A stretch of 64,000 nucleotides of DNA from Thuidium tamariscinum (lineage: Eukaryota > Streptophyta > Bryopsida > Hypnales > Thuidiaceae), in assembly GCA_947034885.2 (NCBI GenBank), contig OX344758.2:22099067-22163066 (forward strand), given 5' to 3'. The stretch's first letter is position 1. Each line of letters starts with the position of its first letter. This document shows, piece by piece, positions 14,803-60,897 of the stretch. The notes under the pieces are model-generated. The model saw only the letters and a list, made by a program, of their open reading frames with translations, ran no database searches and had not been told where the DNA came from. The position numbers were made by a program, and so were the translations under genes.

Positions 14803-15956
14803 TTAACCCTGTAAGGATGGGCTGGTCACTGTGGAAATCATTTTTTTATTACAGTGCAAATCACCTACTTTAACCCTTAAAGTTCTTTGACTATTTTTTC
14901 ACCAAAATCGCTCCAAAACTGCCATTTTTAACACAAGTGCAAAATATTTGGAAAATATTATTTCTAGACACATGTAACCGTAGGATTTTGTAGTATGTTG
15001 GTTAGAGAAGATGGGGGGAAATTTTCAGAAATTTCTACTTTGTGGGTTACAAGATAAGAGTGTTTGAATTGACCAAAATCTTTTTTTGGCCCCACAAAAA
15101 ACCAAGCAATTGCATTTTACAAGCTCACATTTGTGTGAAAAAAAGTCCAAAATGGTGGTGCTTATTTGGATTCATTCTTCAAGTCATGTTGGCTACATCT
15201 TTGAAGAATTCAAGTCATTTGGAATTGTACAACATATAAGAAAAAAATAGTAAGTAGAAAGAATAGAGAATGCTTCAAAATACTAAATGGTTAGAATTTT
15301 ATTTTTGAAATTGAAAATTGCCAATCCCAATGGTTCAAATGATGTACAGAAAAATCTGCACCTAATATTTTTATTTTTTTTGAAAATACTGAAAATAAAC
15401 TAAAATAAAGGACTTCAAAGTTTATTTTAGAATAGTGAATCCATAACTATTTACAAACTAAAACTCTTCATAATTTTTGACTTGATGATCCAAATGGAAT
15501 TATTCAAAGCTTTCCATGGATATGTGAATCCATATAACCAATTAAAAAATTTTGTTGCTAAAAAAGATGATTTTTACAGATTTGTCTGAATTGCTCAAGT
15601 TGAGAAAGAAACAACATATTAAGCAATAACTTTTTAACTATGGAGTCAAAAGTTACGAAAATTGTTGGGCTTTAAAGATATTCCTCATCCACACCTTCTA
15701 TTAAAGTTTGATCCCCCAAAATAGAAATCTCTAGTCACATGTGCTTGCCCAAAAATTTTATGTTGCCAAAAAAAGGCATTTTGGTCCTTTAGGGGTTAAG
15801 AAAATCAAAAGTACTCATTAAAAGCCAAGTTATAGTACAAGACCTCTTGTTTTTACACAAAACTCCAAGGATGAACAATTGCACTTTTGTATTACATAGA
15901 AGACTTCCCTATCATTGATTGGACACTTGATGTCCACAATGGCCTTTGAAGGTTAA
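14803..15956 (-). mobile_element. R3-family TTAA MITE (minus orientation) split by an inserted TTAA element
   Basis: The pieces 14803-14873 and 15796-15956 together form one copy of the ~220-bp R3 MITE seen intact at 26191-26412, in reverse. The left outer end is TTAACCCTGTAAGGATGG and the right outer end is CCTTTGAAGGTTAA. The reverse complement of the right piece runs from the end through AAGTGTCC and GGTCTTGTAC to a TTAA, and the reverse complement of the left piece continues from that TTAA with the expected GATTTCCAC segment. The intact copy has a TTAA at the same internal position (TTTTTTTAAGCAAATG). Confidence 0.72.
14870..15799 (+). mobile_element. TTAA element A (~930 bp, type 1, non-coding)
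   Basis: Begins TTAACCCTTAAAG and ends CCTTTAGGGGTTAA, so it is bounded by TTAA with inverted ends. The interior shares blocks with the other type 1 copies: CTATTTTTTCACCAAAA near the left end, a CCAATCCCAATGG block, an AATGGAATTATTCAAAG block, and AAGTTACGAAAATTGTTGGG near the right end. No open frame of useful length. It is nested inside an R3 copy. Confidence 0.78.
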
Positions 15957-16019
15957 GGTAGGTGGTTGTAAAACCAACCATGAACCAATTTTGTCTAAAT
16001 GTGTTGTATACATTTAAGA

Positions 16020-16252
16020 TATCTTGTCAACCCACAAATGATATGGAGGCCATTTTTTGGTCAATGAACAAGTAAAAATCTCTTTGTGTAGGATAGATAT
16101 GCAACTATTCATCCTTAGAATTAGAAGTAGAAAGGGAAGATATTTTACAATACTTTGGTTTTCAATGAGAGTTTTAGATTTTTTGAATCAATGGTTCCCA
16201 TGTATCAAAATTCATGATTTTCGTGGTCACTAGCTTATTGTTTAAGGATTAA
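16020..16252 (+). mobile_element. R3-family TTAA MITE, abutting element B
   Basis: Shares with the intact R3 copy the run GTGTAGGATAGATATGCAAC, TTCATCCTTAGAATT, the AGAAGGGAAGATATTTTAC-like core and the GTGGTCAC end block. Its right end, AAGGATTAA, coincides with the left TTAA (16249-16252) of element B, so the two elements share one TTAA. The left end is diverged and approximate. Confidence 0.5.
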
Positions 16253-17199
16253 TTCCAGAAGGTTTTGACTATGTTTTCACCAAAAACGCTCCAAAGCTGC
16301 CATTTCTAAAGCAAGTACAAAATTTCAGAAAAAACATCTTTGAACATTTGTAACCACAGGATCTTGTATTGTACTAGTTCAAGAAGATATGGAAAAAATT
16401 TCATAAATTTCCATTGTGTAGATTGCAAGATATTAGTGTTTGAATTGTCAAATAACCATTTTTTGACCCTGCAAAAATCCAGGCAACTACACTTCAGTAG
16501 CTTTTATTTATATGAAAAAATATCGAAAATGTTTGTAACTCTTTGGATTCATTCTTCAATTCAAGTTGGCTACTTGCTTGAAAATTTTCAAATAATTTGG
16601 AATTGTACAAGATGTAGGAAAAAATAAATAAGTAGAAAGAAGTAGAAAATGATCCAAAATACTAAATTGTTAACTATTTTTTTATGGGATTGAAAAATGC
16701 CAATCCCAATGGCTGTAATGTTGTAATAAACAATATACACCCAATTTTTGTATTCTTATTCAAAAATATTCAAAAATGAGTAAAATAAATTACTTCAAAG
16801 TTTATTTTAGTATAGAGATTCCATAAGTACCCATAAGCTATCCACAAACTAAAACTCCTATAACTTTCATCTCATTAATCAAGATGGAATGATTCATAAC
16901 TTTCCAAGTAGATAAAAATCTAAAGAACAAATTTGAAATTTGAAAATTCAAAAAAAGTGATTTTTGAAGAAGTTTTTTTTTTCTACTTGGGTTGCCCACC
17001 GCGTAGAAAAAACTACATATCATACAATAACTTTTTCACTATGTAGTCAAAAGTTATTAAAATTGTTGGGCCTTAAAGCTACTCCTCAAACACATGTTCT
17101 GTGAAAATTTCAAAGGAAAAAAATAAAAACTCCATTCGTAGTAAGCTGCCCAAAATTGCTATGTTGCTAAAAAACGTAGTTTGGTGCTCTAGGGGTTAA
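16249..17199 (+). mobile_element. TTAA element B (~951 bp, type 1, non-coding)
   Basis: Left end TTAATTCCAGAAGG (diverged), right end CTAGGGGTTAA. The interior aligns along its whole length with A, H and I: CTATGTTTTCACCAAAA, TGCCAATCCCAATGG, ATCTCATTAATCAAGATGG and AAAATTGTTGGGCC all occur in order. Confidence 0.72.
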
Positions 17200-17964
17200 T
17201 TGGAGGTGAGAGATGTTTCAACAGTCTTAGATTGTCATTTTATAATGACGTGCCCTAGATTTTGAGAAAATTTGGTCCCTTCCATAATGGTTGTACTATA
17301 GTGTACAAATATCTATTGGGACCATTCACCCATCTCCAATAAATTCAATTACAATAGTAAACTATTACATGTAAGGTGGAAGTACTAATTACCACATATG
17401 TTCCTAATAGTGGGCCCTAGATTCACCTAATTGTATGCGTAGATTTTAGTAAATGTATCCTCTAAATGTTTAATTTTGATTAGCTAACACATGTGAAGGA
17501 CACATACGAACTTACATTTATTGATAGCTGATTTTCACAAATTTCAAATTTGGGTGCACCTAAGAGAAAGTTTCATTGGTTTATGGAGCCAACACTTTGA
17601 AAAATCATAGAAATTGCATACAACATGTGCAAAAAATCTAATTTTTTTTAATATTTAAGATTTTCACACGCTAATTCACAAAAATATAATTTTTACAAAG
17701 AGATGCCTCCAACTATGTTGGATTGCTTATATTGATGGTTTTGGATGCTCCCACTCAAGTAAAACATTTCTAAACAACTCAAGTGAGAACATGGCTTTAA
17801 TAGAACCTGACTATCATCCGATTTCAAGATTCTGTCTGTCTAATAAGTAAGGAGTGCGTATGATTCTTTCAGACCTATGAATAAATAGTTCCATGTTCCA
17901 ATTGATTGTTGAGGCAGCTAACTTAGCTCCTGAAGAATGCCAACAGAAGATTTTTGCATTATCT

Positions 17965-19362: not shown

Positions 19363-19860
19363 TAGAGGTCCCGACTCCGACCGAGCATTAAAAAGCAAAC
19401 AGAGGTACATTTTGCTTTCTTCAATGTACCAAATCTACACTTTTCAGGAGGTGGTCCACAACATATGACTGCCCACTTTTTTCAACTTCAAAAATTTGGA
19501 ACTAATTTCACAAAGCTTCAAAAAATATGAAACAGCATGGGTTAGATGTCTATTCTATAATAGAACCTCTCTTACTTGACCCTCTTTGGGTTGATAACCT
19601 CTGTAACTCAATGTGTTAGACCAATCCTGGACTGAGCCAAATTTCAAAGGATGTGAGTAAATCTGACCCTCTTGAAGTGAATAAACCTCTGTAACACAAT
19701 ATGTCAAAGTAGTCCAGCACTGATTGAGTTAGAGAGGTTCTACTATACTTGTCTTTCAAGGAAAATTTACTAAAAAAAATACTTCTAGATGTTTTACCTC
19801 TCCAAAATTCAGTTCCAACCCTTAAGCTTAAATGGTTGGTTTGTGGACCTCCTCCTTTAC
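19363..19860 (+). mobile_element. R2-family repeat, interrupted by an Emigrant-like element
   Basis: Shares with copies at 24586, 37306, 47453 and 54694 a block with TACATT near two TGTACCAAAT-like segments, GGAGGTGGTCCA, CAACTTCAAAA, CAAAGCTTC and AAAATATGAAA. The outer ends resemble AAGGTAGAGGTCC and GGACCTCCTCC. In the copy at 37306 the sequence passes directly from GTCAATTATACTTGTC, whereas here a ~194-bp element splits the same place. Ends are approximate. Confidence 0.5.
19554..19747. mobile_element. Emigrant/pogo-like MITE (~194 bp)
   Basis: Terminal inverted repeats of about 20 bp: TATAATAGAACCTCTCTTAC on the left; the right end reads back as TATAGTAGAACCTCTCTAAC. The arms contain further inverted matches (GTAACTCAATGTGTTAGACC against CTGTAACACAATATGTC). 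The AGAACCTCT ends and TA-rich borders resemble the plant Emigrant (Tc1/mariner, pogo-like) MITEs, which duplicate TA. Comparison with the uninterrupted repeat at 37306 supports a TA-type insertion point. Confidence 0.65.
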
Positions 19861-20292: not shown

Positions 20293-20500
20293 TTAACCCT
20301 ATAAGGTGGTTGTAGGCACTAAGTGTTGGATGAATGATAGAGATCCTTCTATATAAGATAGAGTGCAAATGAAGTTCATCATTAGAATTTTGTGCCAAAG
20401 AAAGGGAGGTCTTGTACAATAGTTTGACCTCCAATGATTGTTTTTGGGTTTTTTAGAAGATGAATCACATTGTATTCCAAACAATGATTATGGTAGAACC
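20293..20500 (+). mobile_element. R3-family TTAA MITE, right end decayed
   Basis: Left end TTAACCCTATAAGGTGG. The body follows the intact R3 copy: CACTAAGTGTTGGATG, ATCCTTCTATATAAGA, GAGGTCTTGTACAATAG, TTTGACCTCCAATGA, ATGAATCACATTGTA. The right terminal TTAA is not recognisable. Confidence 0.6.
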
Positions 20501-20995: not shown

Positions 20996-22144
20996 CCACC
21001 TAAGGGAGAAACACCCATTTCCATCCTTGTACCTATTCTTGGATCCTAGAGTACCACTAAATCTATCCATAAGCATTCATTAAAGCGTCCAACAAATGTT
21101 TAATTCTAATTTGCTGATGCAGTTGTAAGACACATGTACAGTTTTTATTCATTGACAACTGATTTTAGCAGGTGTTCATTTAAAGGTACACCTATCAAAT
21201 GGTTCCAGTGGTCTAGGGAGCCAACACTTTGGAAATTTATAGAAATTACATATTGATTCCGAAAATTTTAATTTTTTTTTGAATATTCATGATTTTCACT
21301 CGCTAATACTAGAAAAATATCAGTTTTAGAAAATGCTGCCTCCAACTATGCTGGATTCCTTATTTGGACGGTTTTGGGTGTTTCCACTGTACTGGTTTAG
21401 GATGGTTTCATTGTACAGTACCACTGTTCTAAAGAACTTGTTCACTGTTCATGGTCTTATCTGGTCAACGAATGAAAATATCTGTTGCACAGTGGGCAGG
21501 AAATCACAGATTGGATGATTGGATCATTACAGTTTCCGAGTCTGCTTCGGACCCTCCGAAAGGTATCATTGTCTCCTTTTTTCGTACGAACTTACTGCAT
21601 GAGCTCCACATCAATCAGGTTCGCACACTTCAAGAGAACCTTGGATCCCAGGCTCACTCTGTTTCCTTCGTCAACAACAGCTGAAGATTGCCAGGCGGAA
21701 GTTCTTTTGAGAGAGCGCTTCTAGCTGACTTGCAGCTCCATCACGTAAGGATTTCTGTCTCAGCTGAATCTTTCTCTTGCACACGCATTTTCCATTGCCT
21801 TGCTCCGTGCAATACATTCTTCAGGCCGGCTAGGAGTCCCTGGAAATAGGGATTTAGAAGAGCAGACGAATAAATTCTTTTGTGTCAAGAATCTGAAGCT
21901 CATCGCAGGTGGGAGGCTCCAAAAGCCAGAAGAGGGGAAAAATCTAAATTCTTTTTATGCAGAGGAGAGGCTCCGAACTCTTCAGGAAGAAGACATCGAG
22001 ATTCTTTTTGTGCACAATCTTGAGCTGGATCATTGCACTCAGTTGGGTGGCCACGAAAGCAACAGAACGAAGATATCTTGATTCTTCTTTTGTGATTTCG
22101 ATCTCCAAGATGCTGTAGAATTTGTGGGCACTGAGTTGTGTGCA

Positions 22145-22192: not shown

Positions 22193-25541
<3,349 letters not shown>

Positions 25542-26190: not shown

Positions 26191-26412
26191 TTAACCCTAG
26201 AAGGATGCAGCCATCACTAAGTGTCCAAGGGATGGCAGAGAATCCTTCTATGTAGGACAAAAGTGTAGACGTTCATCCTTTGAATTTTGTGTGGAATTTT
26301 AGGAGGTCTTGTACAATAGTTTTGACCTGTGATGAGTGCTATTGGGTTTTTTTAAGCAAATGATTCACATGGTACCAAAAAGGTTGATTTCCACTCATTC
26401 TTCTAGGGTTAA
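26191..26412 (+). mobile_element. R3-family TTAA MITE, intact reference copy (222 bp)
   Basis: Left end TTAACCCTAGAAGGATG; the right end read on the other strand is TTAACCCTAGAAGAATG, so 16 of 17 bases match, including the TTAA. The interior has AGTGTCCAAGGGATGG, AATCCTTCTATGTAGGAC, GAGGTCTTGTACAATAG and TGATTCACATGG. No coding capacity. Other copies: 14803-15956 (split), 16020, 20293, 54465. The ends strongly resemble the piggyBac terminus, which starts CCCTAGAAAGA after a TTAA target. Confidence 0.8.
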
Positions 26413-28170: not shown

Positions 28171-28329
28171 AAATAACTTTCTTTTCTCAAAACGAAGCTT
28201 GTTGTAAACCTTTTATAGATTCGTTTGAAATGAGCATACTAACAAATTCTTAACATGAATCATTGAGAATCCTGTAAGTTGCAAAAACCATGTACCTCCC
28301 ACATCTGAAACCTTGCAGCAAAACATTCA

Positions 28330-28380
28330 ATGCAGATCCTCGTCGTCAAGGAGGAGATGCAGCATCAGCAGGAATCATGA
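28330..28380 (+). promoter_or_regulatory. Upstream ORF, copy 1 (16 codons)
   Basis: ATG to TGA with no stop, encoding MQILVVKEEMQHQQES. It lies in copy 1 of the duplicated leader, 388 bases before the proposed BTB start codon. If transcribed as part of the leader it could affect translation of the main frame. Its transcription is unproven. Confidence 0.45.
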
Positions 28381-28558
28381 AGTTTGTTGCCACAAATTGA
28401 TCGATTTTCTCAAAACAAAGCTTGTTGTAAACCTTTCATAGATTCGTTTGAAATGAGCATACTAACAAATTCTAGTTAAGCACACACGTCATTGAGAATC
28501 CTGTAAGTTGCAAAAACCATGCACCTCCCACATCTAAAACCTTGCAGCAAAACATTCA

Positions 28559-28609
28559 ATGCAGATCCTCGTCGTCAAGGAGGAGATGCAGCATCAGCAG
28601 GAATCATGA
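28559..28609 (+). promoter_or_regulatory. Upstream ORF, copy 2 (16 codons), identical to copy 1
   Basis: Encodes the same MQILVVKEEMQHQQES and is identical in nucleotides to 28330-28380. It ends 108 bases before the BTB start codon at 28718. Confidence 0.45.
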
Positions 28610-28717
28610 AGTTTGTTGCCACAGATTGATCGATTTTCTGCGGAGCATCCCCTGATTCGATCGATTCGGCTGCAGGTTGGCTTTGCTTTGCTTCCTGATT
28701 TCGGATGGTCTCCGGCG

Positions 28718-31044
28718 ATGCCGAAGTTTCTTCCTTGGATGTGCTCCAACGTCGAGCTCGACGACCTGCAAGACCAGATGCAGAAGCTGCTGGAGAAGGA
28801 GAACTTCATCAGCTCGTGGGACCCCGAGACGATGCTCCCGCCGCACACGGACGTCATTTTGGAGGCCAACGACGGAAGGCTCGTCCACGCTCATAAAGCC
28901 ATTCTGGTAAGACGCCGGAACAACCACAATTCATTGGCAGGGTTGGAAACATCCTGATTCAGATCATTCTTTACTTCAGTAAGCTTGCATTATAATTTCT
29001 TGTGACAAATTCCATACTCAGTCAAGTGTAGTGATGAAGGCAATCGTCATGTCACTTTTGCATTAATTAGAGGGTCAAAACTAAGAGGATTGTCATTCTT
29101 AATTTATTTCCTTGTTTTGTGTGATTGATGAGGTCTATCAAAGTTGTCTATAGTCATTGAAGTAGAAAGATTTGATTCAAAGGTAACCACAATCACCTAA
29201 TGCTAACCTCTTTCTAAACTTGACCCATACATGTATTTGCCTAAAAAATACTCTCAATATTCATGAGTTTAGGAGTGGTTTTAGAAATGACTATTTTTTG
29301 CACTTCAAAAATTCATACTTTATTCATCTTACATGCATAAGAAGGGAATGGCTAGAATATCCTTCTAACTTGCAACATGCTCCTACCAAAAATTAAAGTG
29401 ACACAACTTTGTTTACACTAATCTAATTCTAATGACATTCTAAAAGTTTTGTATTTATTTCATCTTGTGTTTCCACTTTCATCACATTATCATCAATGAA
29501 TGAAATATGCCTTATTCCATGAGACTAGTTGTACTATTATACTCCTACACAATTAGTAGAAAAGGAGGCATCAGAGTACCAAGCTACAATGTCAAGAATT
29601 AATGCCAAAAGTTCATATGGACACCAAAGCATGTAATTAACAAGCCATCATATAAGATTAGTTGTAACCTTAGCATCCAAAAGAAAGGTTTTAGAATTTT
29701 CTCTTCAAAATAGACACAAGGGTTAGTTTAATTGCACTTTATATTTTCTAAGGGTAAACCATTTCATTCCATTGAATGACTTTACAAATAGAAGACAATT
29801 CAACATGAGACCCTAATTTTTCATACTTTGATGGGGTACAAAATGGAGACACTTAACTAATTATTCTTCACCAAAAATAGTAACACTTCACACTATCAAT
29901 GCTTGACTAACACCAACTTCAACTACATAAACATTCTACTACCACTCCATTGCCACATGGTGCAATGTAGGTGCTAAAAGGGAGGGTGATTTAGAATCAC
30001 CTTCCTCATACATTGAAGGAACCACAAATTTACAAGATATGTCAATCTTGTCTTACTAAGGGGTGCTCTACAACTAGAGACCAAACTAAATTTGTTGTAC
30101 AAGAGGTCCAAAATCCTCACTTGTGTTTGGACAAAAGGTTGAAATTTGTGCAATTTGACCTCAAGGAAAATGGCCTCACCTCCTCCAGGCATAAAGCACC
30201 CATTTGTTCAAAGAAGATGGTTCTCTCTGATAACTAACTTGACCTAATGACTTTCATTTGTTATCTACAATAAGTCTCCCTATGACAGGCATAATGCCAT
30301 CCAACCCATGACAAGCAAAATTGTATTAATGTACATACCCAAATTTGAAATGTGTTTCAGTAGAATTTTTTGCTTGTGATGGGCTAGCAAGCATTTGGCT
30401 TGTCATAAGCAGGTTTACCTTAGTGCAGATAGTAGCATATACTCCAGCTTAAGTCCTAAACCCACTTATGTTTCGGTGTAAATTCTAAAGTTCTTTAAGC
30501 TTCATGGGTTGCAAAATCTAACAATTAAGCATGGCATGGACCTTGAATGTGGCATGGCGTGTAGATGGGGAAATCCGTGACCTTCAAGAACATGTTCGCG
30601 GCCACGAAGGACGCGGTGAACCCTCAGACAGTGAAGATGGACATTGAGCACGCCGCCCTGGAGGCCTTCATCCACTTCTTCTACGCGGGCTTTGTGAAGG
30701 AGGAGGTGTTGGGCGAGCTCGCCGACAAGCTGCTACGCGCCTCCGACAAGTACGGCATTGGGCTGCTGCACGACCTGTGCCAGGAGAAGCTGATGAAGTC
30801 CATCCACCCAGACCGCGTCTTCGAGTACTTCCTGCTGGGCAACAAGTGCCGCGCCGACCAGCTGGTGCACGCCATCGTCGGCTTCGTCGCCAACAACTAC
30901 ACCGACGTTTCGGAAATCCATGGCTACGACAACTTCCTCAAGGACGACCCCACGCTGGTGGCCAAGCTCTGCAATGGGGTTGTCAAGCGGCTCAAGGGGA
31001 AGATGGGCAAAGTCGAGCACCACAAAGCAGTGCCGCCGCCATGA
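28718..31044 (+). CDS. Small BTB/POZ domain protein
   Basis: BTB/POZ proteins of this plant type dimerise through the BTB fold and can act as substrate adaptors for CUL3 ubiquitin ligases. Two exons, 28718-28906 and 30565-31044, join in phase 0 across a 1,658-bp intron (CTG|GTAAGA ... GTGTAG|ATG), giving 222 aa. Exon 1 has a short predicted coiled segment (LDDLQDQMQKLLEKENF, 14-30) and the start of the BTB fold, DVILEANDGRLVHAHKAIL (45-63). Exon 2 begins MGKSVTFKNMF, which supplies the FKxMF helix at the normal spacing, then ALEAFIHFFYAG, LLRASDKYGIGLLHDLCQEK and a shorter helical C-terminus. There is no MATH, NPH3 or ankyrin part. Exon 2 is much richer in G+C than its surroundings. The ATG at 30565 is the splice-junction codon, not the start. 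The architecture resembles At4g08455-like proteins, but I do not claim orthology. Confidence 0.88.
28907..30564 (+). other. Long intron of the BTB gene
   Basis: AT-rich, beginning GTAAGA and ending GTGTAG. The frame at 30013-30237 has no recognisable content. No complete transposable element could be delimited inside it. Confidence 0.6.
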
Positions 31045-33013: not shown

Positions 33014-33276
33014 TAAGGTGGGTACAACGAAAAGGGTAGCGGACCTTAAAGCGCCATCTACATTTGGTGTACATTTCCAAAATCAGTTATGTACACAGGC
33101 TGTAGATGGTGCTTTTCAAAACAGACTTTGACCGTTAATAACTTTTGTATATTGTTCCAAATCCACTATCGAAACATGCTTTCACTTGCCAACAAGATAT
33201 ATGAAAATCTAAACAACTTTATAATAGGAACTAGGCACAATACCAATAAGTGGCATTTTTGGGTGTACCCACTTTA
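33014..33276. mobile_element. Terminal-inverted-repeat MITE with GTGGGTACA ends (~263 bp)
   Basis: The left end TAAGGTGGGTACAAC is inverted at the right as GTGTACCCACTTTA. Just inside, CGCCATCTACATTTGGTG is matched by an inverted CTGTAGATGGTGC. A diverged relative, partly inverted, seems to lie at about 34265-34560 (ending GGTGTACCTACTAGGG). No coding capacity; superfamily unassigned. Confidence 0.55.
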
Positions 33277-35168
33277 ATCCAATGAACATAATAGAGGTAA
33301 TCCGGAAGTGTGTGGAACAATGGAAGGTGGGATTAGAAGTGGGAGTTTGAGAAAAAGATAGGGCAAAACTCCTTACAACACCAAAATTGAGGTTTGATGG
33401 AGTTTGGTGTCATGTTTCTTTTCTATTATTTTTAGTCAAACCTTCCTTTGACATCCATTCACAAACACAAGACAAAACTTACAATTAACTCTAATCTTTA
33501 GAAGAAAAAGTAGTTTTGGTGGACTTGACAACTCACCATGTAAATAAAATAAAATTTTGTTGTACTATTAAGAAAAAAATTTGGAGGCTTGAAGTATTAA
33601 TTGCATACTTTTCATCAAAAAAAACTTTCTAGATGAGATTACTTACTAGTACTACTATTGGTGATGCTTTAATGTTGGGGTAGCCAATCAGTGGGATGAG
33701 TTGACGTAATTGGCATACAAACATAATAGCAACACTTAAGTTTCAAAGCCAAAGCTAATTAGAGCATCTACGCTCTTGCTCCAAACAAGTGGCCTCAACA
33801 ACTCTCAATGGGCCTACATGAGAAAATGTTCTCCATCTATGCCATTGCAACGCATAAAATTTGAACATATTCCAAAAAAACAAGTTGAGGCCCACTCAAC
33901 TACTCCAATTTACTCATTTGGCATATTTTTAACATTGTTTGGTATTTTGCAAAGTTAGTCCTTTGCTTGAGAGCATTGTGAGCTACTAGGGAAGTACCAT
34001 GTGGATGTCTACAATTGAGAGTGTAGGCAAGGGTGGACAACTTGTTGTAGACCTTGAAAACAAATCAACAATGGACAATCTATAACAGAAATTGAAGATC
34101 ACTTTTCATGAGTATGGGTGTGAGATTAATCCTCCGGGATTAACATCAATGGTTAGAACTTATCCAATGGTATTCAATCAATAATCTCCAAAGATTAGTG
34201 ACATACATAAGAAAAAAATGAGAATTAAGAGATTGATAGCAAACAAATAAAGCCTCGCCAACAAATTGGTTGGTTTTTTTACATATCTAAGGTGGATACA
34301 CTCAAAAGCACCACAAATTGGTACTATGCCTAGTTACTATTATTAGGTTGTTCACATTTCCAAATAGTCTTGTTGGCAAGTGAAAGCATGTTCCAGTGCA
34401 CCAAAAAACAAAGCATGTGGATTTAGTATGTAAAAGTAATAAAGAATCAAAGTTTGTTTCTAAAAGTGTCATTTACAGTCTATATGCATATTTGATTTTG
34501 AAAATGAACACAAATTGTAGATGATGCTTTAAGGTCAGTTGCTTTTTGGGGTGTACCTACTAGGGTTTTTTTTTCATTTTTGGAGAATAGCCACAATGAC
34601 GATATAAAATGTTATAGGGATGCTCCAAATTGCAATATTCATCCATTTTTTGGATATATAGTATGGTTTTCAACCAAAATTAGGCAAATTCATCTAAGAT
34701 TTTTCTTTAATTCAAAGTTGTCTGACAATTTCATCCAAGTTTTCTGGCATTTTTTGGGGTGTTTTTTAGCCAGATTATTTTTTCTGGTGCAAACTGGCAC
34801 CGAAAAGCCAAAGAAAAAACCCTGGTACCTACCTTACCCTGTCCACCAATTAAGGCATATCCACCTTACATCACCAAACCCAGGTCGGTTGTTTTCAATA
34901 CTTCTTATTGAGACTCCTTCAACACTTTGGCAGTGTTAAGAATAGTTTCAAATGAATGTTAAAAAAATTAATTAATTAATTTTGATGTAAACATTTTTTT
35001 GTAGTGCCAGTGCAAGGATGTCCCCCCCACAGAGATGGGATCCATTGAGGTTACCATTCAAGGAAGACTCTGCACATTTGCACTCTTTCCAGAGAAAGAA
35101 TTCAGGGCAACATCAACCTAGAAAATGGGAATTTCAGCATACTCTAACAGAAAAGGGCCAAAGCATAC

Positions 35169-36099
35169 TTAACCCCTAAAGGACTGAGGCATTTTCTGGC
35201 TTGAAAACCACTCAAAACTGCCATGTTTGCTACTTCCTCCCAAAAAAAAAAAAAAAAACAATTTTATTAGAATCTAACCGTAGGATCTTGTTAATTACTT
35301 GTCTGAGATCATATGGTAAAAATTTCATGAAGTTTGACCGTACCGATTGGAAGATATTAGCATTCAAAGTTGGAAAAAAAAGTTTTTTTGAACTCTGACT
35401 TGCAATTTCAGATGACTTTGATTGCCATTTGTTGAATTTTTTTGCACTATGGACCATGAAGTTAAAATTTATTATGTTGAACATTTGAGTTGGGAATTAG
35501 GAAAAAAATTTCAAAAAATTACTACTTGATTTTCATTCATTAAAAAATTGTTAAGTAGAAGTAGGTCCAAGATTGAACAAAACACTAAGTTGTTAATAAC
35601 TTTAAGATGAAATTGAAAAACCATGATCCCAAAGGTGAGCTTGTTTTTGCAAACATCCTAAACCCTATCAAAAAAGAAAATTTGAAAAATTTGAAAAATT
35701 GCATTCAAAAATGAATTTTGTAAGTTATTTTCTGAAGAAGGTGCTTAGATTGCCCGAAATTCAAGATTGTCCGTAACTTTCTCATTATTAGTCCAAATAA
35801 AATGAAACAAAGCTTCAGATGTAGAACAAAACAAAATCTTCAAGAAAAAAAATAAAAAATAAAAAAATAATTCTTTTTGTGGTGTTTTTTTTCTGCCCGG
35901 CGAACTGCTTTTTGGACATAGAATGGCATAACTTTTGCTTCCAAGCACCAACTGAAATAAAAATTATATTTTTGGAAAGCTAATCTGATTTCCTATCTCC
36001 AAAAAAAGTTTCAAAAAATAATATAAAAAATTCAAGTCACACAAGCCTGCCCGAAATTCCAAGTGTCCCCCGAGGGGACTTCAGTCCTTTAGGGGTTAA
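35169..36099 (+). mobile_element. TTAA element D (~931 bp, type 2, non-coding)
   Basis: TTAACCCCTAAAGGACTGAG on the left and CAGTCCTTTAGGGGTTAA on the right: a near-perfect inverted repeat of about 18 bp, one of the best preserved ends in the window. Type 2 interior as in C (AAAACCACTCAAAACTGCCA, TTTGACCGTACCGATTGG, TTCTGCCCGGCGAAC). A poly-A run is near the left end. Confidence 0.85.
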
Positions 36100-41145: not shown

Positions 41146-41178
<33 letters not shown>

Positions 41179-41336: not shown

Positions 41337-43589
41337 CAACTAGCACCCCACAACTGATGTGTTGATGGATGTATCTCTAACCAAGGTTAGAATGTTTTTT
41401 TTTCTCCTTTCCAAAGTTGGGACTAAAAATTCATGGCACATCTGCAGCCCCTGAAGGTCGTATGTTTAAAAAAAATTTAAAGAAAAAGAAAAAGAAAAGT
41501 TCATAGCACATGTTCCAAAGTAGTGTGCAACAAAGTAGGAATGAGTGAGTAAAAAAGTAGTTAATTGTGTGATTGGAATTAGAAGAGTCCATAGATTGGC
41601 AATGGATCCAGTATACTTTTAGTCTTTCAAAATTTATAATAATTTCAATTCATGCAATAGAATTACCAAAGTTTTTGGAATCTCCATCATTTCTATCCTT
41701 GCACCTCTAAAAATTTGCTTTGCCTTACATTAACCAGATCATGTCTATAATACCTTAAATGATTGGTTCCAAGTAGTTCTACCTTAGTCCATTGTTAGTT
41801 GGTGGAATTTTGAAAAAATGAACGGTAACAATTTGATTGTGCTGAGGAAAAAATTGGTGAAAAAAATCTAGAAACTTCTATGTGGAGTAAAAAATAGCAA
41901 AAACAACAATTAGACTTGGTACTTCAAAAAACAATTTAGTATGGGATTTGGAGGAAAATAGTTGGTAAAATTCAAATGATGATTGTGAATATTAATCTAT
42001 TTTGTCATATACCTTAACATATAATTTGGAATTTTTGCATATTTTTCTATATCTTTGTAGAAATATGTTATTTACCTCAATGTCGTCAAATTAGTTGTAA
42101 GATTTTTCTATTTTAAAATTATTAAAAGTTTATTTGGAAAGAATGAGAAATTAATTGGACAATACATCAACTTGAAGCTCTTTCTTCATGATATAGAATA
42201 TGGATTTATCAAGTAGAACACATTTACTTTTACTAAAATCTATTGAACTTAATATTAAACTTCATGGGGGTGCTCTAAGTACCCTTCCCTTATAATCTCT
42301 TTTATCAATTTTACACCAAAAATTAGAAAAAAGTACAACTTTAAAATAATGAATTATGCATGTAGTATATTAAAAAAAACAATATTATGAGATAAGATAG
42401 ACTTATCTTGTACCTAAATAACAACATTCAATATGTCTCCTAAGTGTTCTAAAGTACCATCACTTGCCTTTAGAAACAAATAATGATTAGTGATGATATT
42501 CATCCAAATTTGGATTGATGGATTGTGCAATGACTTTCCAATTTCATATCATTAAAATTTTCTATCGTATTTTTGTATTCTTTAGAATTTATCCATAGAT
42601 ATAAATTTCATTGTAGAATTAATCAATTATTGGTCAATAGCATGAATAAATTTTCTTGCAAAAAACAATCATAAACTTTGAGAGGTGTGTAAAAAATGTG
42701 TGCAACCAAAAAAGAATTTAAATATCTAAATCAATAATGTTGCACATTCATAATTCTAAAATCCAATTATAAATTGAATATATTTACATTGGCTCTAAAA
42801 ACCAACTAAATTAACTTTGACCCACAAAATATCAACCACTATACTTGTCTAGACTCAAATTAGCATCCAACGGAGTCATTAACCAACAGTTAATGTCCTT
42901 AAAATGTTTTAAAGCATTATGGGAGATTGGAGGGTAAGGGAGGGCCGCTCCCTTGCATGTTCCTTCTGTTATCTTAAAATATTAAATCGGCCCGAAATGG
43001 CTGAATTTTTGAATTTTGTTTTTAAAATTTGAGTTCCAGAATTGTGGAAACGTGCCACATCAATAGTTTGATGTAGTCAACACATTGCCACGTCAAAAAA
43101 TAGTGATCATTTTACTTTTTACTTTTTTAAAAACAAAATTAAATTTTATCCAAAGGTAAGATCCATTAGCAATTGAAATGTGCATTAATGGACAAAATAC
43201 TATGACTTATAGTATTTTAAATCTATAGCACAATAATCTAAAATTGCATAGGCTTATTAGGAGAAGTTATAGTAGCACTAAGTGTATAGGCTTGCTTTTC
43301 TAAGCCTACAATCTCAAAGAAGGTGCTAGCAATATATAGTTTGTTTTATTTATGTAACCTTCGAATTATATTTTCTTAAAATTTACATAGAATCTATAAA
43401 TCATATAAAAATATGCTTTGGTGATATTCAAAGAATTTATCATGAATGATTTTATTTTAAGGGCATTACTTATTAGGTGCCATAAAATACATGTGTTTAC
43501 AAGATTTATACATATGTGACTTTTCCAAGACTACAATGACTTTCTTTAAGGACCCTAAAGGACCCTAAAGGACCCCTAAAAAATCATAC

Positions 43590-43950
43590 CTACCTATAAA
43601 TTTAAACTCATAACTTTCATCTCATTAATCATAATGAAATTATTCAAAGCTTCCCATGTATATATAAATCTAAAGAATCTATTTCAAATTTTTATTTAAA
43701 AATAAATAAAAATTTGAAGAAGTTTTTTGGGCTATTCGGGCTATCCAGCGAGTAATGAAAACCACATGTCATGCAATAACTTTTTATCCATGTAGTCAAA
43801 AGTTATGAAAATTGTTGGACCTAAAATCTACTCCTTAGACACACACTGTGTGAAAATTTCAAAGAAAAAAATCCAACTCCATCTATAGTGGGTTGCCCCA
43901 AATTGCTATGTATGTTATCGAAAAATGCAGCTTGGTCCTTTAGGGATTAA
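43590..43950 (+). mobile_element. TTAA element G (type 1, 5'-truncated)
   Basis: Only the right third is present: ACTCATAACTTTCATCTC, AATGAAATTATTCAAAGC, AAAGTTATGAAAATTGTTGG and the end CCTTTAGGGATTAA. The left border is a run of three GGACCCTAAA-like repeats at about 43550-43580. It ends six bases before element F begins. Confidence 0.65.
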
Positions 43951-47775: not shown

Positions 47776-48168
47776 TCATTTTTAAGGTTGGGACTAGGAA
47801 GGTCATGACACATGTTCCACAATATCAAAAAGTGTGCTAGAAGTATTGATTGGGAAAGTAGTCTCTTGAATGATTGGAATTAAAAGAGTCTTAATATAAG
47901 CTATCAATTCAAAGCACTTTTTGACTTTCAAAAATTATAGTAATTTTAGTTTTGGGAATAAACTTAGGAAAATTTGCAAGTCCCATATTTCCTATCTCTC
48001 TACATCAAAAAATTTGCATAGCCTCATACTCCTCATGATCTCTTCTAAAATTGCTTAATCCTTGAAGGACAAACTAGTGGCCATAGAAATCATGCATTTT
48101 GATATCACGTGACATCATCTACTTTGAATAAGCCAAATACATTCATTGGAAGTCAAAGTCATATAGAA

Positions 48169-50289: not shown

Positions 50290-51197
50290 GTGAAGTGTCT
50301 GTTGCTTCCGTCCCGCGTCCTCGGGGGAATTCGGTGGAGATCTACTTCAGATTTTTCTTCATTTTTTTGCGGTCACGCATTGGCTGCATTGCATTCGTGA
50401 GATGCATTCCGATCTCCGATCCAACGGGTTGCGAACCGCCCGAGGACTTTGTGAGACGGCAGAGATTTTCGTGTTTTGGTTGTCTTTGTAAACATCTGTG
50501 AAGGTTGTGCATTTTGCTGTAGACGCTCTGGCGTTGTACGCTGCGCTCGGGCGCTACTTGAGTTTCGATCTCGTGAGTTTCGGTTTTGCCCACAAAGCTC
50601 TGAGGGTTTTCTGCAACTTTTAACGACGCCAAAGCGAGGCGGAGCAAGTTCGTCTTGCAACTGCAAGGAAACTTCGTTGCATTGGCGACTTCCAACGCTG
50701 GCGTCGTGAATGCGCGGTTTTAGCCGTGGATGCGTGTCTTGTGCAGAAGGTTTGTCGATTTTATGGTGTGGGGTCTGAGGCGCGCCGGGGGTTAAGATCT
50801 GGTTGCGCTGTGAGTTGTGAGATCGTGTTTGCATCTCGTGATTTGCAGTCAGGGGTGTGAATTGTGGAGCTGATAAACCCTAATATTTTTGGATCGCGTC
50901 CTCGACCGGGAATCAGATGCTTGCGTTTTTCTCTTGAGCAGATTCCGGCGCGTGGTGATGATGATTATGACTCTGGGGGTCCTATGTATCAGCAATAAAA
51001 TGTTTCGTCAGCGTGTTCATCTTTGCGACTTTGTGAAAATGTGCGGGTTATACGTAGACTATCGATAGTCTGTAGGCCTTTAAGTTCGAGCGTTGCAGAA
51101 TCTGGAGTAGGATTGGTGATTGGTTCCAAGCATTTTAGAATTCGCTTGAGGTTCCTTCAGCGTCAACACTATGTATACGTCTTTTGGATTTTCAGCG
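50290..51197 (+). promoter_or_regulatory. CpG-richer promoter/leader region of the GT14 gene
   Basis: This 0.9 kb is much less AT-rich than the DNA further left, with many CG dinucleotides, and runs to the start codon. A TTTTCAG just before 51196 could be a leader-intron acceptor. I cannot place a TATA box or transcription start. Confidence 0.35.
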
Positions 51198-53396
51198 ATG
51201 GAGAGGAAGTGGCGGTTACCCCTGTTCGCCAGCTTATCTATATCGCTCGTATTATTTCTATTCGCCGCATTCAGTCTTAAGCCTTCGACAAGCTCATACT
51301 TTAAATTCCTACAAAAGGAGGAGAAATCGATGTTCGTAGAGGATAATCTAGTTGAGCAACCTTCTGTGAGTCTACCTGCCCCTCCGCGACTTGCTTATCT
51401 AATCTCTGGGCACAAAGGCGATGGGATGCGAATTCGGAGGACGTTACAAGCAATTTACCACCCGCGAAATTTCTATGTACTACACTTGGATCTTGAGGCT
51501 CCTCCAAAGGAAAGAGTCGAATTAGCCAGATATGTGCGCTACAATCCTGTTTTTCAAGAGGTTGGAAATGTAATTATGATAGGGAAAGCTAACTTAGTGA
51601 CGTACCGGGGCCCTACAATGGTTGCCACAACTCTCCATGGTGCTGCAATATTGCTGAAGAAATTCAAGGACTGGGATTGGTTCATCAATTTGAGCGCTTC
51701 AGATTACCCGTTGGCTACCCAAGACGGTAAGTAATTCATTCTTTGCATAAATGTATGAGCAGGTTCTACAGCATTCCTTTTGTGTAACATTTCAGTTTCC
51801 ATATAAATCTATGGTAGAACTGTAGCTTCTCTTTACATTTTGTTGCAGGGAATGAAACTCGTGTCATTATTAACGACTAATGTTTAGCTCGCTAAGAACC
51901 TGATCTTTCAGGTGCACATTTTCACTACAGTAGTGGTAACACATTGAATTGAAATTTCAGATATTCTACACGTATTTTCATTCTTACCTCGTGACCTGAA
52001 CTTCATTGAGCACACCAGCGATATCGGATGGAAAGAGTAAGTACATCGTGTTACTGCAATGACTTGCCATTAAGCATCTTCTTTGTATAGATTTGATCGT
52101 CATTGTTTCTTTCTATTGGATGGTGTGTGGGCACCTGTAGAAATCCTTGAATTTGTAAGGGTCTTGCATTTGGGCTGCTCTTAAAATTCCTGTGGTTAAT
52201 TATTAATTTTGTCTCCTGTCTCCTGCAGGTTCCAAAGGGCAAAGCCTATCATTATCGACCCAGGGTTGTACATGAACAGAAAAAGCGACATTTTCTGGGC
52301 AACTCAAAAGCGAGCAGTCCCGACAGCGTATCGATTGTTTACAGGTGAGGTTGGAATTATTGGCTTTAGCGTGCATTAGCCAAGTGCATTGCATAGTATG
52401 AGTCTGTTCAAGTCGTCCTCTTCTTCTTCCATGCTGTTCGACTAAGAATGAGTTTGATCTTTGCCAGACCTCTTTTCATGAGATACGACGTTTGTATTTT
52501 AAGTAAGCTATTGCCAAATTGGTATAGTTCCTCAAGATATAATGTTGCACACGCATGCACACTCCAGAGTTTTTCTTTCATACCAGCTGTTTCTGGTCTG
52601 TTTTTGCGTGGTCCTGAAGCTCTCTCGTTATAATTGCAGGATCGGCATGGACGGTCCTTTCAAGGTCGTTCATGGAGTATACGATTATGGGTTGGGACAA
52701 TCTGCCTCGAGTGTTACTCATGTACTATACCAATTTTGTATCGTCTCCAGAGGGTTATTTCCACACCGTAATCTGCAACAGCCAGGAGTTCAAGAATACT
52801 ACTGTAAACCATGATCTCCACTACATTGCGTGGGATACTCCGCCAAAGCAACATCCCCTGTCCCTCACCCTCAAGGATTTTCAGAACATGTCCAAAAGTG
52901 GAGCTCCCTTTGCTCGAAAGTTTGAGAGAGAGGATCCTGTACTGGCATTTATCGATAAGCAACTGCTAGGGCGAGCTCCAGGGAGGCTAACTCCAGGAGG
53001 TTGGTGTATAGGTATGAATCAAACTTGTTGCTTCTTGGGTATCCTCGTATCCATGTTCGATACTGCGACTATTAGAATGCTCGCTTTCGAGTTACCCAGA
53101 AAATGTCGGTTCCTTACTTTTCATTTCACTCTACAAACAAATTTGATGATTCCTTACCCGTCGTGTTGAAGGGAGGTCAACCGCATTCGGTTGCTTCGAG
53201 CTCAAGGTCTACTGTTTTTGAGAGTAATGTATTGTTGAATTTTGTTACAGGTGGTGCTGTTGGCGAGGACCCGTGTGCAAGGAGAGGAGACACGAGTCTC
53301 CTCAGACCAGGTCCTGGTGCTCAAAGGTTGCAAGGTTTGATTGAGCGTCTATTGGCTAAACCAAAATTTCGCTCTGAGCAATGTATCTCTGTGTAA
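51198..53396 (+). CDS. GT14 beta-glucuronosyltransferase (GlcAT14-type, Branch domain)
   Basis: Plant GlcAT14 enzymes are Golgi type II membrane proteins that add glucuronic acid to the type II galactan of arabinogalactan proteins. Exons 51198-51726, 51961-52036, 52229-52344, 52640-53011 and 53251-53396 join in frame at GT-AG borders to 412 aa, near the usual length. The protein starts MERKWRLPLFASLSISLVLF, a short basic tail and one membrane anchor (about 7-28). A spacer is followed by the catalytic domain: PPRLAYLISGHKGD (62-75), HPRNFYVLHLD, FINLSASDYPLATQDD (the DYP motif at 169-171), FIEHTSDIGWKE, DPGLYMNRKSDIFWATQKR, GSAWTVLSRSF (241-251), LPRVLLMYYTNFVSSPEGYF, HYIAWDTPPKQHP, and the cysteine-bearing end GGWCIGG ... 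EDPCARRGD ... RPGPGA. A further in-frame ATG at 51171 would add nine residues; I prefer 51198, because the family starts shortly before the anchor. No lesions are seen. Confidence 0.95.
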
Positions 53397-55036: not shown

Positions 55037-56800
55037 TCAACTTATAAAGTTCTTTGACTATGTTTTCACCAAAAATACTCGAAAATTGTCATTTCTAATA
55101 CAAATACCAAATTTTAGAACAAAAAATGTTATTGGATACATGTATCTATATTATCTTGTAGTTCATTAGTTTGGAAAGATATAGAAAAATTTCAGAAATT
55201 CTCACCCTTTGGATTGTAAAGTATTAGCATTTGAATTGATAGAAATCTTTTTTTTGACCCTACAAAAAATAGTGTTGCTACACGTCACAAAGTCACATTT
55301 ATATGAAAAATTTGAATCTTTAAAGTTGGTGCTTCTTTAAATTTATATATGTCAAGGCAAGTTTGCTACATACTTAGAATATTTTAGATCCTTTGCAATT
55401 GTATAACATGTAGGAAAAAAAATAGCAAATAGAAAGAAATAGATAATGATTCAAAGTACTAAATTGTTGTGAATTTAGTTTTGGATTTCAAACAATGCCA
55501 ATTCTAATGGTTGGAATGTTGTGTAAAGAACCATCTACATCTTATGATTTTAATTTTTTCAAAAAATATTGAAAATTGAATCAAATAAAGGATTTTGAAG
55601 TTAAATTTATTTTAGAGTACAAAATCTATAACTATTCATAGATAAAATTCCTCATAACTTTCATCTCATTAATTAACCCCTAAATATTTTTTACTATGTT
55701 TTCACCAAAACCGCTTCAAAATTGTCATTTTTTAGACAACTACCAAATTTTAAGAAATTTTTTTTTGGACAAAAGTAACCATAGGATCTCTTATAGAACA
55801 TGTTAAAGAAGATGTGTAGAAAATTTCAGCAATTTTCGCCATGTAGATTGCAAGATATTAGTGTTTGAAGTGACAAAAATCATTTTTTTACCACTGCGGA
55901 AATACGGGCAGTTGCACTTCAGAAGACCATATTTGTATGAAAAAATGTCCAAAATTATTGTAACTCTTTGGACTCATTTTTCAAGTGAAGTTGGCTACAT
56001 GCTTGAAAATTTTTAGATCATTTGGAATTGTGCAACATATAGGAAAAAAATAGTAAGTAGAAAGAAGTAGAAAATGAGCCAAAATACTAAATTATTAACA
56101 ATTTATTTATAGAGTTAAAAAAAAGACAATCCCAATGGTTGTAATGTTTTGTTAAGCAATATACACCCAATGTTTTTATTTTTTTCAAAAATATTAAAAG
56201 TAGAATTAAATAAAGAATTTCGAACTTTTTTTTGTAATGTAGAGATTCTATAACTAGCCAAAACTACCTCAAACTAAAAATCCTCATAACTTTTTGACTC
56301 ATTAATCAAAATGGAATGATTCAAAGCTTTCCACTTAGATAAAAATTTAAGAAACTAATTTCAAATTTTACTTTCTTAAAAAAATAATTTTTAAAGAAGT
56401 TTTTTTTGCTGCCCAGTCTGCCCGATGAAAGAAGGAAACAACGTATCATGTCATAACTTTTTAACCATGTAGTTAAAAGTTATGAAAATTGTTGGGACTT
56501 AAAGCTACTCCTTGGGCACGTGTTGTGTAAAAATTTCAGAGAAAAAAAATAAAAAATCCATCTGTAATGAGCTGCCCGAAATCGCTATGTTGCCAAAAAA
56601 TGCAGTTTGGTCCTTTAGGGGTTAAAACAAAATGATTCAATGCTTTCTATGTATTTTGAAATCTAGAGAACCAATTTCAAATTTTAGTTTTTGAAAAAAA
56701 TGATTTTTTCTTATTTGTTTAGATTGTCCAAGTGAGGGGGAAAAAACTACATAACATACAATATCTTTTTAACCTTGTAGTCAAAAGCTATGAAAATTGT
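55037..56800 (+). mobile_element. TTAA element H (type 1), split by element I and 3'-truncated
   Basis: The left part, 55037-55676, starts CTTATAAAGTTCTTTGACTA (left TTAA changed to TCAA) and runs to CTTTCATCTCATTAATTAA. The right part resumes at 56622 with TTAAAACAAAATGATTC and continues through TTTTAACCTTGTAGTCAAAA to about 56800, where similarity stops. Joined, the two parts are collinear with copies A, B and I. Confidence 0.8.
55673..56625 (+). mobile_element. TTAA element I (~953 bp, type 1), inserted in element H
   Basis: Starts TTAACCCCTAAATATTTTT and ends CCTTTAGGGGTTAA. The interior is the fullest type 1 copy: CTATGTTTTCACCAAAAC, TGGAATTGTGCAACATATAG, AGACAATCCCAATGG, GACTCATTAATCAAAATGG, TCTGCCCGATG, GTTGGGACTTAAAGC. 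The TTAA at each end is the duplicated target site in H. Confidence 0.9.
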
Positions 56801-57985: not shown

Positions 57986-57989
57986 AGAT

Positions 57990-58194: not shown

Positions 58195-58276
58195 GGATGT
58201 TGTCACTCAGGGAAAAAAAGTGATTGCCATAGGTAACAATGACGAAGTGAACTTTCAAGAGTTGGTAACAATGTCT

Positions 58277-58574
58277 CATTTGATGAAATTTGGAGCCTCT
58301 GGAAGACTATAGGTTCCCAAATTGCAAGAAACAGTGAAATTGCCTTGAGAATGCATTTTAATGTTGCAGGAACACAAAAACTGTGGAATCTTACGTAGTT
58401 GAGACTGTGCCATATCATCAATTTCTTTTTGAACTTTTTTTCACATTTCAAGACCCAATTTTTATTTTATTTATTTATTTATAATTGCTAGCTGTTGTTT
58501 CAAGAAATGTTTTAAGAATAATTTTACGAATAGACCAGAAATGGCCCTCCCAAGGCTTCAAATTTCATCTAATG
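58277..58574 (+). mobile_element. CATTAGATG-family TIR element, copy 3 (298 bp)
   Basis: Starts CATTTGATGAAATTTGGAGC and ends GGCTTCAAATTTCATCTAATG, minus one base. The interior GAATGCATTTTAATGTTGC, GGAACACAAAAACTGTGG and GTGCCATATCATCA aligns with the copy at 48169. Confidence 0.65.
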
Positions 58575-59918
58575 CCATTGTTGATGTTGTTGATAATGAA
58601 AAAAATTCACGGTCCGAATTTCTACAACAAGGTCATGGAATTCATCAAAAAGGTATAATACTTCTATTTGTATTCAAAAGTTTTTTTTTTCACTAATATA
58701 TAATTGGACATTTTTGCAAAAAATATTTGAGGAAATACTCATGAGTTGAAAATCATTTTTTGCAAGTGGCATTAGGAAAAGCCAAGGTGTATAATCGCGT
58801 GGTCAATCGTTGCCCTAGATTTGACCTTCTGTTCTTTAACATCCAAAAGAATTTGTTGGTGCCAAAGGTGTCATTTCCAGCGTGTGCGTCATTGAAATGC
58901 AAATGGAAAGTAGAATATGATTAATCAAGCTTTATTTTATATAGAAACATTTGCAAGACCATTGCTGCATTATTGTATTCCGTTTGTAGAGTGTAGATGC
59001 CAAATGCGTCATTATTGGGCTATGTCTATGATGATAAAAAAAAAGAAGAGAATGGATGGAGATGAGCTAGGTGCACTTGATTTCAATCATTGACCAAACT
59101 AACACAATATGATTTTATGAAACCTTCCAAATTTTGTTAGAATTTGGCATTATATATTTTTCTTCAAATTTTTATTGATATCAGCTTTATTTTTATGCTT
59201 GTAAAATTTGAAATTTGGTATCACCCTTGTGGAGAAAGACGTCATTGTAAAGGAAATCCCAATTTTTTTTCAAACACTCGGTGACAATGTTCACAATAGA
59301 AGTTCACCTCTAGCATGATGACTTCTTGATGAACTATACCATCAAGAATTTCATGTTGATCAATGATATGGATAGACTATTGTGGTACAAAATTTGAAAG
59401 GACACACATTTTTATCAATTCACCATTATAGAGACTACTGACAAAGGAGATTTAGTTTTCAATTACACAACATTTATGGGTGAGTTTTGATTTAAAAAAG
59501 TGTCTATTTAATCTCTATTTCATACAAAAAGTCATTGTGGTAATGATTTGATTATTGATTTTCCAGATGAATCTATTATGGCATGTTGCATAATAGGGCA
59601 CCACATTGTGGCTTTGGAGAAAAATAAAGAGATTTTTGCACACCATCCATAAAAAAGATTGTTCTTCTTGTCATGACAATTGGAGTGGACATTGGAAGTG
59701 TCAATAGTTGTAGTGTCATAAGATCTAGATGCCATGGCCATAGTACCTCAAAACTTCAAAAGTTTGTTAAGAGAAATACACCTAGTAAGTAAGTTTTTTT
59801 TATTTTTTTATTTTTGGTTTGTATGGTACTTGTAATATTTTATAAATATAACATCAATCATTTGTGTTTGCAAGAGAGGGATTGATGTCAAACAATGTAG
59901 TGAAGAAGAAATGAAGAC

Positions 59919-60897
59919 TTAACCCCTCAATGCCCAAGGGGCGCAAAATTGCGCCCCTCAAAAGTTTTTAGTCAAATTCAAAGTGCTATAACTTTTGCAT
60001 CTGATTTTAACATTCCATAAAACTTGTTGTTAAAGTTGAACATTGTCTTCTAGTTTGTGTGGTAAAATTTTCAGATTGATCCAAAATGTGATGATTTTTT
60101 GGCAGCCAATCAAAGTTCGCAGGTTCAATTTGAGTTCAAAAACTGCATTTTAGGGCTGCAACTTCGAGGTCTTGTTTCTCTTTCATCAAATGATCATTTT
60201 CAATCAAATTTGATTGATTTTGTTTCCCTTAAAGTCTAGTTTGTGTGGTAAAAATTTTATGTCAATTCAAGTTGTTTTGAATGTTTGGGAGCAATTCAAA
60301 GTTAAAAATCCTGCCATTTTTGGAATATAGTAAACTTTGACGGCTTGTTTCTTCTTCATATAGAGTCCATTTTCAATAAAACTTATTGGAAAAGTTGCAC
60401 ATACTAGTCTATCTTGTGTGGCTAAAGTTTCATGTCAATCCAAGAAGTTATGAGTAACTGAGAAGCATTCTAGTAGAGGGAGGTTCAGTCTTAGATGTAG
60501 TTTTTGTAGTTTTTCTTGCTATTTTTTGACATTTCAAAGCTGTTTTGTAGACACAATGAGTCAATTGAGTGAATTTTTTTTCCACCAATGTGTTTGTATA
60601 GTAGTTTTGAATCACTTTGTAGTGTAAAGTTTTTTCATTTGAGTAGGTTTAGAAATCAAATTTCACCTCCAAATGTGTTTTTGGGAAAATTTCAGCATTC
60701 ATTTTTAGCACTGAAACATGATAATCTTGCAATCCATGTGGTCAAATGACTCCAAATTTTGTACATGTCATCTACAACATGTCTACTACAAGATTTTATG
60801 GTTGAGATTTGTATAGCTTAGTGACATTTAGATCTACAAGGCTTCAAAAGCTATGATGTTTTTGAACTTGTTTCTACCAAGGGCCTTGAGGGATTAA
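59919..60897 (+). mobile_element. TTAA element J (~979 bp, type 3, non-coding)
   Basis: The left end TTAACCCCTCAATGCCCAAG is inverted on the right, which reads back TTAATCCCTCAAGGCCCTTG. A strong hairpin, GGGGCGCAA AA TTGCGCCCC, sits 20 bases inside the left end (59938-59957). The interior differs from types 1 and 2 but has the same style: repeated ATAACTTTTGCAT, TTTGTGTGGTAAAA and ATGTCAATCCAAG blocks with no reading frame. Confidence 0.72.

Follow-up and report, generated by a model that had tools for sequence, protein, structure and literature searches.

TTAA-bounded, CC-ended elements of the moss Thuidium tamariscinum are probably old, non-autonomous piggyBac-type transposons

Which transposition system moved the short, mostly TTAA-bounded elements that recur in a stretch of 64,000 nt from the moss Thuidium tamariscinum (assembly GCA_947034885.2, contig OX344758.2, positions 22,099,067 to 22,163,066 of the forward strand)? 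A preliminary description of this stretch, hereafter the window, to which all counts below refer, had listed about ten elements of 0.85-0.98 kb plus a ~0.22 kb family of miniature inverted-repeat transposable elements (MITEs), and read them as piggyBac-like copies moved by an unrecognised plant transposase. We find that they are most probably old, non-autonomous piggyBac-type DNA transposons, a reading to which we assign a probability of about 0.76. The mechanism class (TTAA-specific, non-autonomous) is well supported; formal piggyBac membership awaits a transposase.

Based on BLAST self-comparison and nhmmer searches, the population comprises two related families of ~0.93 kb (A and B), a single element of ~0.98 kb (C1) and the ~0.22 kb MITE family (M). 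Together, these cover 10,072 bp, i.e., 15.7% of the window. The copies underlying the nhmmer models had been trimmed at TTAA beforehand, and the MITE profile was built from four of the six MITE copies. Eight copies are near-full-length (A1, A2, A3, B1, B2, B3, B4 and C1; 847-979 bp by nhmmer), while the remainder of the supposed ten are split or partial, namely A4, which is split by a nested insertion, and the fragments A5 and B5. The MITE family is present as described, with six copies (M1-M6) of which several are partial. The initially reported range of 14870..60897 is too narrow, since M4 starts at 14803 and B5 occupies 8605-8837. The copies and their parts are:

14870..15799, plus strand: A1, family A, TTAA at both ends, inside MITE M4
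16249..17199, plus strand: A2, family A; its left TTAA, placed by eye, is common to the right end of M5
55673..56625, plus strand: A3, family A, inserted into A4 at TTAA
55037..55676, plus strand: A4 left part, older family A copy, border TCAA
56622..56834, plus strand: A4 right part, beyond A3, without 3' end
43572..43950, plus strand: A5, family A 3' fragment, terminal TTAA
17965..18893, plus strand: B1, family B, TTAA at both ends
35169..36099, plus strand: B2, family B, inverted repeat 14/14 beside TTAA
43956..44883, plus strand: B3, family B, left border TTAC, right border TTAA
36459..37305, plus strand: B4, older and shorter family B copy, TTAA at both ends (left refined by eye)
8605..8837, minus strand: B5, family B left-end fragment, border CTAG
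59919..60897, unstranded: C1, lone element of ~0.98 kb between TTAA ends; its right end shares homology with the left end of A/B
59937..59958, unstranded: C1 left-end subterminal palindrome, spanning bp 15-36 of C1 and centred on bp 25.5
36065..36079, unstranded: B2 right-end subterminal palindrome GTCCCC...GGGGAC, bp 17-31, family centre bp 24
20293..20489, plus strand: M1, MITE, left end TTAACCCTATAAGG
26191..26412, plus strand: M2, complete MITE of 222 bp, TTAACCCTAGAAGG...CTTCTAGGGTTAA
54497..54693, plus strand: M3, MITE, left end decayed, TTAA retained at right
14803..14873, minus strand: M4, outer part, position set by eye; A1 splits this MITE
15796..15956, minus strand: M4, other part
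16027..16252, plus strand: M5, decayed MITE; its right end was set by eye at the TTAA that also borders A2 (the nhmmer envelope stops at 16242)
48055..48159, minus strand: M6, MITE-family right-end fragment

The families are not separate but of common descent. The family A model matches B1, B2 and B3 nearly end to end and B4 in part (best E = 3.9e-45), and the right end of C1 is, in inverted orientation, homologous to the left end of A/B (E = 8.5e-9 compared to a best of 1.3 on the reversed window). Ends of the form TTAA/CCCCTAAAGG are found in these families, and TTAACCCCTAAAGG occurs eight times with at most one mismatch, where 0.03 occurrences are expected and none of 100 shuffles reaches eight. 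Pairwise identities are 72.5-78.0% within family A and 62.7-79.5% within family B, such that both families are to be regarded as old.

With regard to the borders, TTAA is found at 24 of the 28 ends located by homology (background 0.76%), a count that is not blind, because some ends were refined by eye toward a TTAA-like tetramer (left ends of A2, B4, A4 and M5; right ends of M3, M5 and M6; the outer end of M4) and the models stem from TTAA-cut copies. The ends represent 27 distinct sites, since the left end of A2 and the right end of M5 are one TTAA. The earlier statement that all elements are bounded by TTAA thus fails for four ends, which show TCAA (A4 left, M5 left), TTAC (B3 left) and CTAG (B5). 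Untrimmed BLAST alignments end no more than 8 bp from the TTAA on the right in A1, A2, A3, A5, B1, B2 and B3, and start no more than 5 bp from the one on the left in A1, A3, B1, B2 and B3. Of the initial tetramers of the elements, 11 are CCCC, 5 are CCCT and 12 differ from both. That is, the CCC-starting termini of the preliminary description are observed at 17/28 ends, while 11/28 begin otherwise; no end (0/28) starts with two purines.

Inverted matches directly beside TTAA amount to 14/14 in B2, 13/14 in B1, 12/14 in M2 and 11/14 in C1, i.e., these four carry short terminal inverted repeats of the piggyBac kind (~12-19 bp); the A copies stay below 11/14. Among all 3,845 TTAA pairs that are 120-1,100 bp apart, eight show at least 11/14 inverted matches, namely these four members and four pairs from other elements. 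The TTAA pairs at 58003, 18945, 9353 and 3990 were rejected as members, since their inverted repeats continue past the TTAA. Respective control counts are 10/12,843 for AATT, 2/2,282 for TATA, 1/2,476 for TGCA, 1/1,254 for CATG, 1/531 for CTAG and zero for ten further palindromic tetramers. Given these controls, the pair test is weak alone, so that we rely on the ends held in common, on the homology of the copies and on the nested insertion.

The clearest target site is the one of A3 within A4. When A3 and one TTAA are removed, the halves of A4 align gap-free at the junction to A1, A2, A3 and A5. The paralogous tetramer at this site is TCCA in A1, TCAA in A2 and A3, and TCAT in A5; presumably, a mutation confined to A4 had created a usable TTAA target before A3 inserted. 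A second case is A1 within MITE M4, for which the sister copy M2 provides an uninterrupted TTAA and the rejoined M4 measures 228 bp compared to 222 bp. This case is weaker because the outer M4 part comprises just 71 bp and 45 of 2,000 random 71-mers score equally. Repeated insertion of copies into or next to others has produced nested pairs as well as neighbours with one common TTAA. Taken together, the TTAA borders (in part set by eye), the CCC ends and the uninterrupted A3-in-A4 site argue that a TTAA-specific cut-and-paste system, with a 4-bp TTAA target duplication as known for piggyBac, moved the elements.

One further element touches this population. At 36100-36451, 352 bp with ends GGTAGCAACATCCATAACCAT (purine start) adjoin B2 at one TTAA, with TCAA on the far side. 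Its relatives at 17464-17755 and 21094-21388 seem to stop before TCAA and TGTA, respectively. It may be a TTAA element of the Kolobok type.

Next, we consider the subterminal palindrome. In piggyBac of Trichoplusia ni (T. ni), the cysteine-rich domain (CRD) has its binding site in the left end, namely a palindromic internal repeat spanning bp 17-33 with the minor groove narrowed at ~bp 25 (PMC7351741; this and the following papers are cited from excerpts). We scanned 301 candidate palindrome centres per end. For the four B right ends, the top centre is bp 24.0, with 67% of the cells paired (mean 28%, standard deviation 9%), and for the C1 left end it is bp 25.5 with 89% paired. The C1 left end is the counterpart of the A/B right end, because the respective opposite ends are homologous. 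When single copies are compared with shuffles, the C1 palindrome with its perfect 10-bp arms is equalled by 0 of 1,000 shuffled versions of its sequence, while the numbers per 1,000 are 25 for B2, 92 for A1, 166 for B4, 223 for B1 and 224 for A3; perfect arms of at least 5 are absent from B3 and A2. The signal thus comes from C1, from B2 and from the B copies taken jointly. The C1 core GCGCAAAATTGCGC resembles the T. ni core GCGTAAAATTGACGC; the pattern GCG.?AAAATTG.?CGC, which covers both, has a single match in the window, located at the C1 palindrome, and one in 200 mononucleotide shuffles.

None of the copies was found to encode a transposase, in agreement with the preliminary description. 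In M2 and the eight near-full-length copies, stop-free frames reach at most 105 amino acids, and among the longest frames of the near-full-length copies, 7/8 have no Pfam match while one matches MRNIP below the cut-off (E = 0.019, 16.1 vs. 27 bits). A degenerate transposase inside the elements was rejected on the same grounds, i.e., for the longest frames scanned. A search with the T. ni transposase is silent on plants, because the named hosts among the best 120 of 967 matches are all insects, and TTAACCCCTAAAGGACC has no match (0) in viral contigs. Within C1, a unit of ~180 bp (60013-60453) is repeated at offsets 186, 173 and 359, which is less clear in A and B. Internal repeats were rejected as a general feature, since C1 alone stands out clearly from shuffles in an ungapped scan; with gaps allowed, self-comparison yields a few weaker direct matches in B2 as well.

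Among known systems, T. ni piggyBac shares the TTAA target, short CCC-starting inverted ends and, as far as C1 and the B family are concerned, a palindrome near bp 25 of one end (PMC7351741). It differs in that the fourth base of the A/B ends is C, that its ends have no significant overall similarity to those studied here, and that the moss elements come without transposase. The coral CMITE elements are likewise TTAA-flanked and non-coding, with an internal region conserved across families, and coral piggyBac MITEs form tandem arrays, as the window elements are neighbours; on the other hand, CMITE measures ~100 bp in contrast to 0.22 and 0.93 kb here, and its host is an animal from which piggyBac-like transposons have been isolated (PMC2872659).

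For the mechanism, we propose that a TTAA-specific transposase acting in trans, probably a DDD piggyBac enzyme, would recognise the CC-starting ends. In families B and C, the subterminal palindrome of one end may bind a dimer of the transposase CRD. The enzyme would then excise the element, presumably seamlessly, and join it into another TTAA, such that TTAA is left on either side. The elements would reside in what is most likely the moss nuclear genome.

Several observations weigh against assigning the elements to piggyBac. TTAA itself is absent from all four paralogues of the A4 site, and the border count is, as stated, not blind. The terminal motif CC[C/T]T, reported together with inverted repeats of 12-19 bp (PMC2872659), fits only 7/28 ends, given that the A/B consensus is CCCC; fits or near fits concern most MITE ends, i.e., of a family with CCCT ends (M2 CCCTAGAAGG), as well as the left end of A1. 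CCCT is the commonest end of beetle piggyBac (PMC12732532), but a large part of the bee piggyBacs show CAC for CCC, and some are without TTAA (PMC10140906), so that the motif is not universal. The palindrome is not significant singly in B1, B3, B4 and every A copy, and the three A right ends show it at bp 20.5, i.e., off-place and at second rank. Opposite ends peak elsewhere (B left at bp 49, A left at bp 49 for A1 and A3 only, C1 right at bp 126), whereas T. ni piggyBac has an internal repeat at both ends (PMC7351741). The GCG-AAAATTG-CGC core was picked after both sequences had been seen. Homology of the whole left ends of C1 and T. ni piggyBac was rejected, since 468 of 5,000 random 36-mers and 108 of 5,000 self-shuffles are as good; also, when 978 TTAA-anchored stretches are compared with the T. 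ni end, the top match is not a member of the population and the left end of M2 is tied fifth. Finally, no transposase is seen within the 64-kb window, such that the plant enzyme postulated earlier has no counterpart there. What stands of the preliminary piggyBac-like reading are the TTAA duplication, the CC...GG ends and the exclusion of Kolobok, although not every copy is TTAA-bounded.

A new TTAA-specific plant superfamily that became piggyBac-like through convergence is an unlikely explanation. It would fit the CCCC ends, a host beyond the usual range and the fact that no known transposase is tied to these ends. The palindrome at the piggyBac position and the CCCT ends of some MITE copies speak against it and make a new superfamily unnecessary. 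We are just as doubtful that mosses host, or hosted, a TTAA-specific lineage of their own, distinct from piggyBac, Kolobok and Sola3, that converged on both the target and a palindromic second site at one end.

It is rather improbable that Kolobok or Sola3 moved the elements and that the ends have drifted since. Sola3 uses TTAA, and its ends are not known to start with CCC. Kolobok, the other TTAA superfamily with good documentation, also duplicates TTAA and has been reported from green and red algae, but Kojima and Bao give its termini as 5'-RR and YY-3' (R, purine; Y, pyrimidine), unlike piggyBac (PMC9587614). The ends studied here are in contrast mostly CC...GG, with RR at 0/28 ends, which bears out the earlier remark that Kolobok ends start differently.

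We consider it very improbable that a Tc1/mariner-type system with TA duplication, ends ACCCC...GGGGT and a mere preference for TTAA is responsible. The nested sites alone are ambiguous between a 4-bp TTAA and a 2-bp TA duplication, because T-TA-ACCCC...GGGGT-TA-A yields the identical joined site, and a MITE-like insert that looks TA-type is found nearby (~19557-19747). Such a system, however, is expected to show a variable outermost base, whereas the outermost border base is T at 27/28 ends compared to 33% T preceding TAA in the window. This favours TTAA over TA, somewhat weakened by the ends placed by eye.

The remaining classes can be dismissed shortly: PIF/Harbinger elements leave a 3-bp direct duplication (TWA), with which symmetric TTAA-CC...GG-TTAA ends are incompatible, and a long terminal repeat (LTR) or solo-LTR is rejected given ends of CC...GG instead of TG...CA and borders that are TTAA or near it.

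The A4/A3 pair is located ~1.6 kb downstream of a GlcAT14A-like gene, which argues against contamination. This gene (~51171-53396) was obtained by joining exons by hand, and both exon stretches tested match the Pfam family Branch. Its product was compared based on the best 120 of 3,090 matches, where scoring was done on the 7,993 candidates sharing most words. Among these best 120, it is 85% identical to GlcAT14A of Physcomitrium patens, followed among named species by Sphagnum, Marchantia and Diphasiastrum with 69% each; higher matches are a JGI protein (95%) and a Logan protein (99% over 87% of the query). A match in another moss, Ceratodon (67%), and a second Physcomitrium protein (66%) are presumably paralogues. 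The comparison thus points to a moss other than Physcomitrium as the most likely host.

Further elements were observed in the window. The MITE-like insert at 19557-19747 has the ends TAGAACCTCTCT...AGAGAGGTTCTA, which resemble those of plant pogo-type MITEs, and an apparent TA duplication. It interrupts a repeat of which uninterrupted copies are found at 24585-24825 (CG at the site) and 37456-37634 (TA at the site). A near-perfect palindrome at 39589-39752 (82-bp arms, 94% complementary, no spacer) starts with CACTAGAAG and has TAT on both flanks; judged by its ends, it is presumably a CACTA-like fold-back element. Long inverted ends also delimit two elements, one of 1.5 kb at 33018-34560 and one of 1.2 kb at 40359-41559, and one frame overlapping each of them matches no Pfam family. 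In addition, 28182-28639 is a tandem duplication of ~235 bp that forms, with 93.6% identity, the most similar long pair of the self-comparison, and 30565-31041 holds a frame with a BTB/POZ domain (E = 1.8e-7) that is by eye G+C-rich compared to its A+T-rich surroundings.

Published statements on piggyBac in land plants conflict. Most descriptions of piggyBac-type elements come from animals, fungi and protists, with occasional occurrence in plants, where red algae are named (PMC12732532), and the excerpted text of a plant review lists six terminal inverted repeat superfamilies and contains no word starting with 'piggy' (PMC9033089). On the other hand, a compilation of 257 genomes gives PiggyBac in all groups studied, including 80 land plants (PMC4438587), a genome table of the fern Ceratopteris lists 1,230 PiggyBac copies with 122,417 bp, another plant review counts PiggyBac among the plant class II superfamilies (PMC10794571), and plants are named as piggyBac hosts without detail (PMC8086355, PMC10140906). 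The compilation, the fern table and the second review stand against the earlier remark that piggyBac is not established in land plants. Among the literature matches listed (mostly titles and abstract starts), no title is devoted to moss piggyBac elements.

If the piggyBac-type reading is true, land plants would have been a natural home to a cut-and-paste system of this type, and plant annotations may have misfiled TTAA families. The ends described here point to a concrete target, i.e., a moss transposase that would act on them.

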